The translations under genes and the position numbers were made by a program. From an uncultured Aquimarina sp. (GTDB lineage: Bacteria; Bacteroidota; Bacteroidia; Flavobacteriales; Flavobacteriaceae), in NCBI GenBank assembly GCA_938011245.1, contig CALLUJ010000031.1, positions 1 to 64,000 of the forward strand: a DNA stretch of 64,000 nucleotides. The letters are read 5' to 3'. Under the pieces are notes generated by a model. It saw only the letters and a list, made by a program, of their open reading frames with translations, was not told where the DNA came from and searched no databases. Of this stretch, positions 44,601 to 49,328 are shown in pieces; the stretch's first letter is position 1; every line of letters starts with the position of its first letter.

Positions 44601-44876
44601 ATGAATAAACTTTTAGTGCTTTTATTGAGTTTAATATTTGATGCTATTGGAATGGTGTCCTATGTTTGGCCAGGAGTGGGAGAAACAATGGATGTAGTTT
44701 GGGCACCAGCTTCGGCTTGGATAATGACTAAATTATATAAAGGAAAAGAAGGAAAAATAGCAGGAATAATTGCTTTTATTGAAGAGATTATTCCTGCGAC
44801 AGATGTTATTCCAACATTCACAATAATGTGGGTTTATACCTATGTAATTTCCTCTAAAAAAGAGAACAAATTTTAG
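44601..44876 (+). CDS. Small hypothetical membrane protein
   Basis: 91 aa, hydrophobic segments, immediately downstream of msrA. Confidence 0.6.
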   Translation: MNKLLVLLLSLIFDAIGMVSYVWPGVGETMDVVWAPASAWIMTKLYKGKEGKIAGIIAFIEEIIPATDVIPTFTIMWVYTYVISSKKENKF

Positions 44877-45739
44877 TTAGCCTTTAATTGAATCGTAGCT
44901 TCTAAAGCTACATCTGGCCATAATTTATTTTGATGGTGTCCTGCACATACCTTTTCTAAAGTATCGTGTCCATTTTGCCATTCAAAAAATGCAAGATCTG
45001 GAATAGTTCCTTTTAGAGTTAGCAGTTTTCCGTCTTCGGAAAAACTACTGCTTAATTCTATGTTTTGTGTAATAGAATTCATAGTAAAGGCTATAACAAC
45101 GGTATTGCCCAAATAACTAATTACTTTTCCTTTAATGGTCGAAGTAAAAGCACCAAAAAATAAGCCTACATTAGTAGTACGTACTATTTCGTTACTCACA
45201 TTTACTGAACTTGTGTTAATAGTAATTTCGGCATCTTTTAAAATATCTATAGGATTTTCAAAACCTTCATTAAGAGTAAAATTAAAGTCGTCAAAAGTTC
45301 CGCTTACACCCGCTCTTTCATTAAAATTGGGGTATTTATAAGCAGTCCATTGCAGCCGTATTCTATTAGGTTCCGATGTTGTAGGACCATTAAGTATTGT
45401 AAGAAAGTTGTCAAAAACTTGCTTTTCTTCTGCAGTAAGAATATCAGAATCGGGAGGAGGCATAACTGTATTGTCGCTTTTATTAATTCGAGACAACATT
45501 AAGGATATTGAAGATTTCGTCTTTTCAAAAGAATCGTAACGATTGGTGCCTTCTAAATGGTAAATATGACAAGAGATACATTTATTTTCTATAATTGCCC
45601 GTAAAGATTGGTCATAAAGTACTCTAGCTTCGGTATCGTTTGTTGGAAATAAAGTTTCTGCGTTTTCGGAAGTACAATTTACTAACCCAATACAGGTAGT
45701 AAATGTAAGTATTATTTTTATTAAAGTACGATATAACAT
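44873..45739 (-). CDS. Lipoprotein with N-terminal c-type heme site and C-terminal YceI-like domain
   Basis: Lipobox CIGLVNC; heme motif IIENKCISCHIYHLEGTNRYDSF...VMPPPDSDILTAEEKQVFDNFL; C-terminal RLQWTAYKYPNFNERAGVSGTFDDFNF...ITINTSSVNVSNEI...GLFFGAF...TMNSITQNI...GTIPDLAF...WPDVALEATI. Confidence 0.75.
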   Translation of the reverse strand: MLYRTLIKIILTFTTCIGLVNCTSENAETLFPTNDTEARVLYDQSLRAIIENKCISCHIYHLEGTNRYDSFEKTKSSISLMLSRINKSDNTVMPPPDSDILTAEEKQVFDNFLTILNGPTTSEPNRIRLQWTAYKYPNFNERAGVSGTFDDFNFTLNEGFENPIDILKDAEITINTSSVNVSNEIVRTTNVGLFFGAFTSTIKGKVISYLGNTVVIAFTMNSITQNIELSSSFSEDGKLLTLKGTIPDLAFFEWQNGHDTLEKVCAGHHQNKLWPDVALEATIQLKAN

Positions 45740-46116
45740 TTTGTTAAGCTTATTTCGTTAAACATATCATCAAACCCACTAAAAATACCCTTAACAGTTA
45801 AATAATCTCCTTTAACAAAAGGAGGGTTTTTATCTAAAATTATTTCACATTTAATACCTTCATTTAATACGATAATAATGCTTTCTTTTCCTTTTTCAAT
45901 ATCGGTAACTTTTCCAGAAACTTGAATAACCTTAGAAAGTAATTCGGAAGAGGAGGAGGTTTGTCCCGATCCAAATTTTGCAATGAGTTGAGGAGCAATA
46001 GTACTTAAATAAGGCTTGGTAGTAGCTATATCTTTACTGGGTTTTTGAAATAAATAATAGCCATACCCAGTAGCCGAAAGTAGGGCTACAACCACAAGAA
46101 TTAGAATTTTTTTCAT
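45721..46116 (-). CDS. OB-fold/tRNA_anti-like secreted protein
   Basis: N-terminal TM/signal then VIQVSGKVTDIEKGKESIIIVLNEGIKCEIILDKNPPFVKGDYLTVKGIFSGF. Confidence 0.65.
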   Translation of the reverse strand: MKKILILVVVALLSATGYGYYLFQKPSKDIATTKPYLSTIAPQLIAKFGSGQTSSSSELLSKVIQVSGKVTDIEKGKESIIIVLNEGIKCEIILDKNPPFVKGDYLTVKGIFSGFDDMFNEISLTKCYIVL

Positions 46117-46118
46117 AA

Positions 46119-46661
46119 TTATTTATAATTTGTAGCTACAGAAATTTTAATTTGTTCGGAAATTTTGTCTTTTACTAGTGACGGAACTTTAATATCATAA
46201 TCTTCTAATTTTAAGTTAAAAGAAGAAGAAAAGGATATGGAGAGGTCTTCTTTAACTTCAATATTCGCAATAATTATTAAAGGTTTTTTTACGCCATGAA
46301 ATAACATTTGGCCATTTATTTCTACACCTTCATAATTATGTGCTTTGTCCAATGCTACAGACGGAGGTATAGAGCCTTTAAATTTTGCTGCAGGAAATTT
46401 ATTGGAGTGTACGTATTTTTCATTAAAATGCTCCTCCATTAAGGCTTTTTCAAATTTGAAAGATTTCATTAAAACGTTAAAAGCAATTTGTTTTTCGTTT
46501 ACTAATAAAATACTAGCGACTTGATTATTTTGAGCGGCTATGTTTTCGATAGGTGTTTTGGAAAGAAACTGAACACTTCCCGTGCGGGTTACTTTTTTGT
46601 TTTGAGCAAATGCGCCGAAAACGGTAATAGTAATCAGCATAATTAAGAGTTTGTTTTTCAT
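46119..46661 (-). CDS. YceI-family protein
   Basis: Signal peptide; FNVLMKSFKFEKALMEEHFNEKYVHSNKFPAAKFKGSI...GQMLFHGVKKPLIIIANIEV. Confidence 0.88.
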   Translation of the reverse strand: MKNKLLIMLITITVFGAFAQNKKVTRTGSVQFLSKTPIENIAAQNNQVASILLVNEKQIAFNVLMKSFKFEKALMEEHFNEKYVHSNKFPAAKFKGSIPPSVALDKAHNYEGVEINGQMLFHGVKKPLIIIANIEVKEDLSISFSSSFNLKLEDYDIKVPSLVKDKISEQIKISVATNYK

Positions 46662-47557
46662 GATTTGTGTTTTTTATGTTTAGAGGTATTAAAAGCTCTT
46701 AGAAGACTAAAGCCGAAATTGATTTCGCGATCAAAAAAATTACCACTTTGGTTAATAGCGAATTTTCCAGGATGTAAAGCAAAAGCATTGGTAAAGTATA
46801 GTTGAAATACATGTCCTCCAGTTTCTATATCAAAACCAATACTAAATGTGTTAGCCTCATCTTGGTGTAAATCGAAATTAGGAATAGTATAATAATACTC
46901 GGCATTTAGCGAAATGGATCCAGAAAACAAATAACGACCACCAATACCAATACTGTAAATATCGTTAGGTTCTTCTATGTTATCGGTAAGGTTTCGATGT
47001 ACCCATATTGGAGCTACTTGCAGGGATAAGTAATCATTCATTTTTCGACTAATCAATGCTTGATTTATATAATCTATACGACCTTCAAAATTTTCGTCTC
47101 TAGCTTTTGGAGTGTATTCTCGAGTTTTAATATCTATATTTCCAAAATAGGAAATATTAAAAGGAAAGGGTTTTTGTCCTGTTTTTTGACGCAGTAGACT
47201 AAGTTTTAAAGTTCCTGAATAAGTTTTATCGGGCTTATTAGATCTAGCTATTCCTGCCTGAATATAGTTAGTAATTCCATATTCAAAACCTAAATGCATA
47301 TTGTTTAAATTATCTAGCCCAAAAAAATTATCAATGCCTTTTATTTTACTAAATACATGAGAAACTCTAAAATGCAATTGTCCAGTTCTAACACGTTCGG
47401 TAGATTGACCAATCATTAATCGTGTAGATTTAAAAGTAGCAATTACTTCTTCTTTTTTAGGCTTAGAAATAGCATCTAATTCTGCAAATAAATCGTCTTC
47501 TTGAGCATTGAGTAGATATGTGAAAAAGCAGAGGAATAATAAGGATATTGTTTTCAA
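46658..47557 (-). CDS. DUF5777-like outer-membrane beta-barrel protein
   Basis: Signal peptide; TERVRTGQLHFRVSHVFSKIKGIDNFFGLDNLNNMHLGFEYGITNYIQAGIARS; beta-strand-rich. Confidence 0.75.
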   Translation of the reverse strand: MKTISLLFLCFFTYLLNAQEDDLFAELDAISKPKKEEVIATFKSTRLMIGQSTERVRTGQLHFRVSHVFSKIKGIDNFFGLDNLNNMHLGFEYGITNYIQAGIARSNKPDKTYSGTLKLSLLRQKTGQKPFPFNISYFGNIDIKTREYTPKARDENFEGRIDYINQALISRKMNDYLSLQVAPIWVHRNLTDNIEEPNDIYSIGIGGRYLFSGSISLNAEYYYTIPNFDLHQDEANTFSIGFDIETGGHVFQLYFTNAFALHPGKFAINQSGNFFDREINFGFSLLRAFNTSKHKKHKS

Positions 47558-47864: not shown

Positions 47865-49328
47865 CTATTCCTTTATAAAACGTAATGCTTGGCTTTTACC
47901 ATTGTTAGTTATATTTATAATGTAAAAGCCTTGTGTAAGTTTTGTAATATCGATACTAGAATTTACAGCTTTCCCACTTTGAATAAGTTTCGAGTTATAA
48001 TTAACGATTTGGTATTCAAAATTTTTGAAAAGTACATTTTCAATAGTTATAATTTCTGTTGCAGGATTAGGATAAAGTATTAGTTTTTTGCTAATATTCA
48101 ATAAGTCTCGTTTTGCTTTTGGTAATCCGTCATCGATAGTTATAGAAGGAGTTTTAGTTTCATTAATTAGTTTTACAGGATGGTGCTTATTTTCTTTAGA
48201 GCATGAAATATCGATATATTTTTGTAAGCTGTATCCATCGTGGGTTTTTTCAAAGCCTAACTCTTTAGATTTTGTTAATAATTCACAAGCGGTATCGTAT
48301 TCGCCTAAATCATGACATATTATTCCAAGATTTCTTAAGGCATAAGAGTTATTTGGATTTAGTTTTAATGCATGTTTAAGATCTTTTTTCCCTGCATTAG
48401 AATTGCCTAATTTATGTTTTATATAACCTCTTACAGATCTAAGACCTTTTTCTTCGGTTAAACTTCCTAGTTTTATTAGTTGATTTTCGCCGTTAAAAGC
48501 TATCTCAATATGCTCTAAAGCTTTTTTGTAGTTTCCTTGATTTAAATTAATGAGAGCCAAGTTTTGATGAGTAAAGGCGTGTTTAGGCCATACTTTTTTG
48601 GTTTTGTTTAAGTAATGTAATGCCAGTTTATAAGATTTTATTGAAGCTAAATAATCTCCTAAATTATACACTAGTCTAGTTTGAGAGGGGTTTACTTCTA
48701 CAGCCAAATATCGATAATGGATTGCATGGTTTTCAAGTTCAAAATGGCTATAAACACTAGCCATACAATCGTATAGGTTGCCTAAAAATCGACGAGGGAC
48801 TTCATTAATTTTTTTACTTTTTTTTAAAAATCTTTCTATCTGTTTTAAGTTTGATAGAGCCAATGTGTGAAACCCTAATCTATGTAACAAATCTCCTCTT
48901 CTAAAGTAATATGAAATATTAACCGTACTAGACTTCATTTTTTCATTAATTGCATTTAATTGTTTGTAGTATAGTAAAGTACGTTCTTTAGTTTTTTTAT
49001 TATAGGGTTTAAAGTGATTGTCTACAGAGATTAACTTTCCAAATTTAAATTCCCAAGTGGCCTGTTTTTCTCCATTTTTATGGTACTTATAATATTTTCC
49101 ATCTAATATATTATCTCTATAGTTTAAGATTTCACTTATTTTTCCAGAGGGATAATAAGCTTTTACACGAGTTAATTTGTTGTTATTGCCATAGAGTTTT
49201 TCAAGTGCAATTACTCCATCGTCAAAATAAAGAGTCTTAATTTTAATAGTATCTTGAGCCAAAAGAGCATAAGAATTATTAATTATAAAGAAAATAAATA
49301 TAAAAAAACGAATGTGTAAATATTTCAT
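47865..49328 (-). CDS. YwqK-like/TPR protein with T9SS type A sorting domain
   Basis: N-terminal LTRVKAYYPSGKISEILNYRDNILDGKYYKYHKNGEKQ; TPR HAFTHQNLALINLNQGNYKKALEHIEIA; C-terminal LILYPNPATEIITIEN...ITKLTQGFYIINITNNGKSQALRFIKE. Confidence 0.82.
   Translation of the reverse strand: MKYLHIRFFIFIFFIINNSYALLAQDTIKIKTLYFDDGVIALEKLYGNNNKLTRVKAYYPSGKISEILNYRDNILDGKYYKYHKNGEKQATWEFKFGKLISVDNHFKPYNKKTKERTLLYYKQLNAINEKMKSSTVNISYYFRRGDLLHRLGFHTLALSNLKQIERFLKKSKKINEVPRRFLGNLYDCMASVYSHFELENHAIHYRYLAVEVNPSQTRLVYNLGDYLASIKSYKLALHYLNKTKKVWPKHAFTHQNLALINLNQGNYKKALEHIEIAFNGENQLIKLGSLTEEKGLRSVRGYIKHKLGNSNAGKKDLKHALKLNPNNSYALRNLGIICHDLGEYDTACELLTKSKELGFEKTHDGYSLQKYIDISCSKENKHHPVKLINETKTPSITIDDGLPKAKRDLLNISKKLILYPNPATEIITIENVLFKNFEYQIVNYNSKLIQSGKAVNSSIDITKLTQGFYIINITNNGKSQALRFIKE

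Follow-up and report, generated by a model that had tools for sequence, protein, structure and literature searches.

What could a beta-barrel, a heme protein, two YceI domains and a small OB-fold protein be doing together in one compact operon of the cell envelope? The question is raised by four consecutive minus-strand genes, here called A to D, in a stretch of 64,000 nucleotides (nt) from an uncultured Aquimarina sp. (contig CALLUJ010000031.1, positions 1 to 64,000; "the window" below means this whole stretch). Re-reading of the open reading frames placed A at 47557-46658, B at 46661-46119, C at 46116-45721 and D at 45739-44873, with an overlap of 4 nt between A and B, a gap of 2 nt between B and C and an overlap of 19 nt between C and D. 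The right-to-left four-gene operon described by the original prediction, which had been made from the sequence without database searches, was thus correct in its coordinates, overlaps and gap. All four products have export-type N-termini as read from the sequence (signal peptides in A and B, a hydrophobic anchor in C, a lipoprotein signal in D), in line with their predicted placement outside the cytoplasm. The presence of two YceI-type domains, a heme protein, an OB fold and a barrel in one unit was likewise confirmed by Pfam, profile comparisons and AlphaFold2. We propose that its products make up a porin-cytochrome-type module for electron transfer at the outer membrane, without relationship to Mtr or Cyc2, and give this reading a probability of roughly one half.

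DUF5777 genes and their partners across Bacteroidota

Gene A (46658..47557, minus strand) encodes a protein of 299 amino acids (aa) that matched the DUF5777 profile PF19089 over its whole length (positions 1-247 of 247, 1.2e-81, Pfam), and is predicted to form a 12-strand membrane beta-barrel behind its signal peptide. The AlphaFold2 model placed the 12 strands between residues 60 and 290 with a mean predicted local distance difference test score of 88 and a predicted template modelling (TM) score of 0.82. The closest solved folds found by Foldseek were generic small porins (KdgM, NanC and OmpG), KdgM ranking first with a target-length TM score of 0.81; comparison of the barrel family profile with solved structures found no homologue. 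The best-conserved stretch of the barrel subfamily is ETGGHVFQ (residues 245-252; 46802..46825, minus strand), which shows little or no variation in alignments A2 and A5.

Of 297 genomes drawn evenly from across the phylum, DUF5777 was detected in 116; it was absent from all 14 control genomes. A first barrel alignment was too diverse for a genome scan, and the ETGGHVFQ subfamily was used instead. The 119 loci surveyed comprise 80 named loci, from one scan of a genome collection with the ETGGHV motif plus best match, and 39 from the phylum sample; 40 had been picked from the latter for divergence or as second copies, and one of these contained no recognisable A. They are not a random sample, and the fractions that follow describe the survey rather than the phylum. 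Within four genes of DUF5777 on the same strand, a heme protein (CxxCH or CX4CH) was found at 98 of the 119 loci (at one by fusion), a YceI gene at 94, both at 78 and neither at 5. D-family genes made up 147 of the 897 genes within four genes of A and 2 of the 615 further out, and all 147 lay on A's strand. YceI genes (101/897 versus 14/615) and OB-protein genes (60/897 versus 1/615) were also enriched next to A, and the median gap between module genes was 11 bp. The OB protein was concentrated in closer relatives, occurring at 53 of the 80 named loci versus 4 of the 39 divergent ones. Heme protein and YceI are hence the standard partners of DUF5777 across Bacteroidota, which answers the doubt, raised with the original prediction, that the families might rarely meet elsewhere. 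The grouping of A to D is not due to chance.

Transcription units of the module contained 94 other genes, the commonest of which encode LytTR/response regulators (10) and two-component sensor kinases (7); judged by these families, the main extra function beside the module is regulation. At Flavobacteriaceae loci a secreted repeat protein, Lipoprotein_15, is sometimes present. Two loci (L040:6453-16113 and L038:8087-14786) carry two divergent DUF5777 operons of different subtypes with an sCache-LytTR regulator and Lipoprotein_15 between them. This arrangement around a membrane-bound regulator suggests that the two operons are jointly regulated by a periplasmic signal.

Gene D and the redox arrangements of related loci

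Gene D (44873..45739, minus strand) encodes a heme lipoprotein of 288 aa with a C-terminal YceI domain. Its predicted lipidated residue is Cys22, followed by the covalent heme-binding motif CISCH (residues 54-58; 45566..45580, minus strand), whose two cysteines and histidine are invariant in alignment A8, and by an MPP motif in which Met93 (45461..45463, minus strand) is the likely distal heme ligand. Met and the first Pro of this motif are also invariant in A8, and an MP pair was found downstream of the heme motif in 89 of 93 short relatives of D. The cytochrome half of D aligns with single-heme lipoproteins that adjoin other DUF5777 genes, and by profile the family belongs with the ordinary class-I cytochromes c, cytochrome c6 being a relative (4.2e-5).

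The C-terminal half (about residues 128-288; 44876..45358, minus strand) matched the Pfam YceI family weakly (0.012, below the cut-off), and its direct profile comparison with gene B gave no significant match. A search of 251 genomes of the Flavobacteriaceae identified stand-alone lipoproteins of about 200 aa (L208-L217) that match it at up to 9.7e-19. Two of these, L210 and L212, match PF04264 at 1.1e-10 and 7.2e-11. The joint profile of the D C-terminus and its relatives matches solved YceI structures in the PDB (5.7e-7), and their alignment (A4) is continuous. Because two of the stand-alone relatives are YceI proteins by Pfam, the alignment is continuous and the profile matches solved YceI proteins, we assign the D C-terminus to YceI, and the operon therefore contains two YceI domains. 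Only four genomes, all of the window's genus, were found to have the cytochrome-YceI fusion (G000, G007, G010 and G549; the G010 copy and L066, from Aquimarina sp. RZ0, are one and the same stretch). Elsewhere a cytochrome lipoprotein of about 120 aa, lacking YceI, takes the place of D and often comes with a longer relative of 230-340 aa, mostly with two or three heme motifs. The fusion is thus the window's own novelty. The four-gene set is a real operon; as a general architecture it did not hold up, being a local variant of a set in which most relatives have the separate short cytochrome lipoprotein.

Many of the short D cytochrome lipoproteins share the N-terminus CYYDxEExLYP (alignment A8; for example L068:6508-6891), and many longer D relatives begin with CKH(E/D)P. 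Both kinds of N-terminus are unlike the surface-export motifs in the literature and may act as barrel-docking or sorting signals. At least two acidic residues at positions +2 to +6 were present in 35 of 76 short D relatives versus 24 of 105 other lipoprotein-like genes, D of the window (CTSENAE) being weaker in this respect. These counts hint at an export signal in the short proteins, although not one of the published form. In Flavobacterium johnsoniae, SDDFE directly after the lipid-bearing cysteine serves as the lipoprotein export signal (PMC5080379).

The ARRANGEMENTS speaking to function are a cytochrome-barrel fusion, quinol-dehydrogenase operons, diheme cytochrome loci and the absence of a dedicated enzyme from the typical set. 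The fusion was found in the single-contig genome G065 (locus L150), where one protein of 421 aa combines an N-terminal CX4CH cytochrome with a C-terminal DUF5777 barrel. A search of 80 genomes of the same order identified full-length cytochrome-DUF5777 fusions in six more genomes from several families, so that the fusion occurs in at least seven genomes of one order. Pfam detected DUF5777 in the C-terminal part of one of them (L191) at 2e-50. The four fusions placed in the barrel tree formed one group with full support in the Shimodaira-Hasegawa-like approximate likelihood ratio test (SH-aLRT). For the fusion, AlphaFold2 predicted a helical cytochrome domain followed by the same 12 strands, with lower confidence than for the barrel of the window.

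At three loci (L167, L173 and L175) the gene order is cytochrome, DUF5777, cytochrome c, 4Fe-4S protein and NrfD, the families being identified by Pfam at L173 and by sequence resemblance at L167 and L175. An ethylbenzene-dehydrogenase-like heme protein (EB_dh) is also encoded at L173 (Pfam) and L175 (resemblance). The related locus L062/L221 has the same quinol-dehydrogenase core (Pfam) together with genes for a hexaheme protein resembling MtrC/MtrF and for a ResB/CcsA fusion involved in heme maturation, and the barrels of all these operons formed one supported group in the tree. A diheme cytochrome of about 345 aa adjoins the barrel at four further loci (L170, L176, L177 and L183).

Other heme proteins were seen next to individual modules. 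At L036:9460-9975 the gene right after the module encodes a heme lipoprotein with a weak match to cytochrome P460, and at L169:9316-11107 a cytochrome c and then a COX1-type subunit, NorC/NorB-like (nitric oxide reductase), lie just downstream of the DUF5777 operon. Divergent loci encode a protein of 540-550 aa with one CxxCH after the barrel (L153:6929-8554, L158:7497-9131 and L164:4400-6046); in the L153 copy Pfam detected a Temptin-like domain together with a tail for type IX secretion, and the protein is possibly a secreted partner. We also considered that the cluster might serve one dedicated enzyme and rejected this, as the neighbours differ between loci.

A putative electron route and its rivals

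In the proposed module, A and D would form a heme-barrel unit at the outer membrane, with B, the D C-terminus and C acting on the periplasmic side and B and D probably serving as quinone carriers. Electrons would pass from the quinone pool to a periplasmic carrier, either YceI-bound quinone or another cytochrome, then to the D heme at the barrel and from there to a partner at or beyond the cell surface, or in the reverse direction. That D binds to the barrel is inferred from relatives, in which the corresponding cytochrome forms one protein with the barrel in one clade and is the product of a neighbouring gene in the others. The YceI domains would carry quinone or another isoprenoid in the periplasm, by analogy with a YceI protein known to carry quinone (PMC9113575), and electrons might cross the outer membrane through the barrel. 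This reading is supported by the co-occurrence of the families, the cytochrome-barrel fusion, the operons with NrfD, hexaheme or diheme proteins and the invariant heme ligand motifs. The redox half of the "envelope redox or lipid-carrier module" originally put forward has therefore gained a strong context from the fusion and the quinol-dehydrogenase and diheme operons. The lipid-carrier half has not, its one source being the ligands of YceI proteins elsewhere. More specifically, DUF5777 and its heme lipoprotein might constitute a third independent family of porin-cytochrome conduits in Bacteroidota, in which one-heme lipoproteins and YceI-bound quinone do without a multiheme wire and cytochrome and barrel are fused in one clade; we offer this version tentatively and would not bet on it.

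Several observations weigh against an electron-transfer module. The Mtr porin has 26 strands and the Cyc2 porin is predicted to have 16; the 12-strand DUF5777 barrel is narrower than both, and D has a single heme. The barrel models were calculated for the protein chain alone, without heme or partner chains. D is at most a candidate surface protein: its short relatives have a conserved acidic N-terminus, but the CYYDxEE consensus is unlike published export motifs, and CTSENAE of the window is weaker. Sixteen of the 119 loci have YceI and no nearby heme gene, and one copy in the window's own genome (L055) consists of A, B, C and a LytTR regulator with no adjacent cytochrome, so that barrel and YceI may have a common task for which a cytochrome next to them is not required. 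The 16 loci speak most strongly against a fixed unit of cytochrome and barrel.

The main rival, which we consider rather unlikely, is an envelope antioxidant system in which quinone bound to YceI would scavenge lipid peroxyl radicals of the outer membrane, the D cytochrome would reduce the quinone again or dispose of the electrons, and the barrel would serve as a lipid port or an anchor in the membrane. The operon would then be the Bacteroidota counterpart of BcnA-LcoA, where the YceI lipocalin BcnA is encoded beside the cytochrome b561 LcoA and mutants accumulate lipid peroxides (PMC9113575). YceI is indeed the second most constant partner (94/119) and is duplicated inside D of the window, and the two-component and LytTR regulators that recur beside the module would fit a stress response. 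However, the window operon encodes no cytochrome b561, and none appears among the 25 families listed for the 94 adjacent genes. The operons with NrfD and Fe-S proteins, hexaheme or diheme cytochromes look respiratory rather than protective, 20 loci have a heme protein without a nearby YceI gene, and the fusion of cytochrome and barrel is left unexplained.

If the predicted fold, nearest to the small diffusion porins KdgM, NanC and OmpG, is taken at face value, the barrel could instead admit a small electron donor or acceptor, with the cytochrome, YceI and OB proteins serving its oxidation or reduction in the periplasm and no electron crossing the membrane. The variety of heme proteins beside the barrel (the diheme cytochrome, the weak P460-like match at L036, the COX1-type subunit after cytochrome c at L169 and EB_dh) would suit such an accessory redox chain. 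Yet the loci do not share any one enzyme, the usual set of four genes lacks a dedicated enzyme next to it, and a covalent cytochrome-barrel fusion is hard to square with a plain diffusion channel; we regard this explanation as improbable. That A to D are chance neighbours without a common function is hardly credible: small genomes are generally known to combine unrelated envelope genes in one operon at times, which no result here favours, but the same families recur on one strand with short gaps throughout the phylum, at 119 loci and in several gene orders, and include a fusion.

As a putative electron-transfer module, the DUF5777 set resembles porin-cytochrome systems by kind, and BcnA-LcoA and Cbp2D by its components. 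Like Cyc2, the fused cytochrome-porin iron oxidase, it pairs a one-heme cytochrome with a small outer-membrane barrel, and one DUF5777 clade has the same order of N-terminal cytochrome and C-terminal barrel in a single chain. Unlike Cyc2, the window encodes cytochrome and barrel on separate genes, fusion being confined to a distant DUF5777 clade; the barrel is a DUF5777 member with 12 predicted strands, and the module includes YceI and OB partners. Cyc2 is recognised by the motif AXPXFAR[Q/K][T/Y] before CXXCH (PMC8406198). This motif was found in 0 of 151 D-family proteins, and identity with Cyc2 was rejected. With MtrCAB and PccABC the module shares an outer-membrane barrel encoded with c-type cytochromes, and one relative locus has the MtrC/MtrF-like hexaheme protein beside a quinol-dehydrogenase module. 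It differs from them in the 12-strand barrel and in the single heme motif of D, versus a decaheme wire. Assignment to Mtr or Pcc was rejected on the one heme motif in D, the systems being defined by multiheme cytochromes, and Pfam detected no Mtr or Pcc porin family in the window proteins.

Both BcnA-LcoA and the window operon pair a YceI protein with a cytochrome in the envelope (PMC9113575), whereas the cytochrome of the window is a c-type lipoprotein and its operon adds an outer-membrane barrel. In the available part of its description (PMC8981238), Cbp2D of the Cbp2D/Cbp2E pair of Cellvibrio combines YceI and cytochrome c domains in one exported, extracellular redox protein, as gene D does; the same part reports a carbohydrate-binding module and a link to cellulose use, unlike D, and mentions no barrel partner. 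A literature search found no paper naming DUF5777, and none of the searches that combined YceI with cytochrome and barrel, or with Bacteroidota or Flavobacteria, turned up anything on a DUF5777 module. DUF5777, although not named in the literature found, was detected in more than a third of the Bacteroidota genomes sampled, and the module probably represents a so far undescribed electron-moving system of the outer membrane. If so, many members of a major phylum in which extracellular electron transfer is not a known trait would possess a surface redox route with defined genes, and YceI proteins would have a role beside c-type cytochromes. An unnamed gene set thereby becomes a specific and testable hypothesis.

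Genes B and C, barrel lineages and genomic surroundings

Gene B (46119..46661, minus strand) encodes a YceI-family protein of 180 aa with a signal peptide and a conserved EHFNENY motif. It matched PF04264 above the cut-off (3.3e-12), and its family profile matched the solved YceI proteins 5ixg (2.3e-6) and 1y0g (2.9e-5). Gene C (45721..46116, minus strand) encodes a small OB-fold protein (tRNA_anti-like, PF12869, 1.1e-6) of 131 aa with an N-terminal hydrophobic segment. Three cysteines were found in 46 of 76 relatives of C, of which C of the window keeps two (Cys-Phe-Cys). The middle cysteine is replaced by Phe or Tyr in the window and in G007, both of which also carry the cytochrome-YceI fusion.

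The genome of the window contains two further DUF5777 operons of different lineages. One (G000:C143, L054:653-2902) consists of DUF5777, YceI, an OB protein and a small cytochrome. The other is the cytochrome-less copy (G000:C124, L055:16168-18095), in which YceI and the OB protein lie beside the LytTR regulator. In the barrel tree, a quick tree with SH-aLRT support only and a midpoint root, the window copy clustered with Marinifilaceae and Marinilabiliaceae copies, and the C143 and C124 copies fell into two separate, mainly Flavobacteriaceae groups. The barrel of the window thus represents a distinct lineage, since the other two copies of its own genome group elsewhere, and from the tree this lineage would be either old or horizontally acquired.

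The start codon of gene A is TTG, with no in-frame ATG between it and the preceding stop, and translation from TTG gives a normal signal peptide. The next gene upstream on the same strand (47865-49328), 307 bases away, encodes a tetratricopeptide repeat protein with a tail for type IX secretion; in relatives this gene does not belong to the module. On the other side, a small membrane protein of 91 aa without a family match (44601-44876, plus strand) is convergent with D and overlaps its stop codon by 4 bases.

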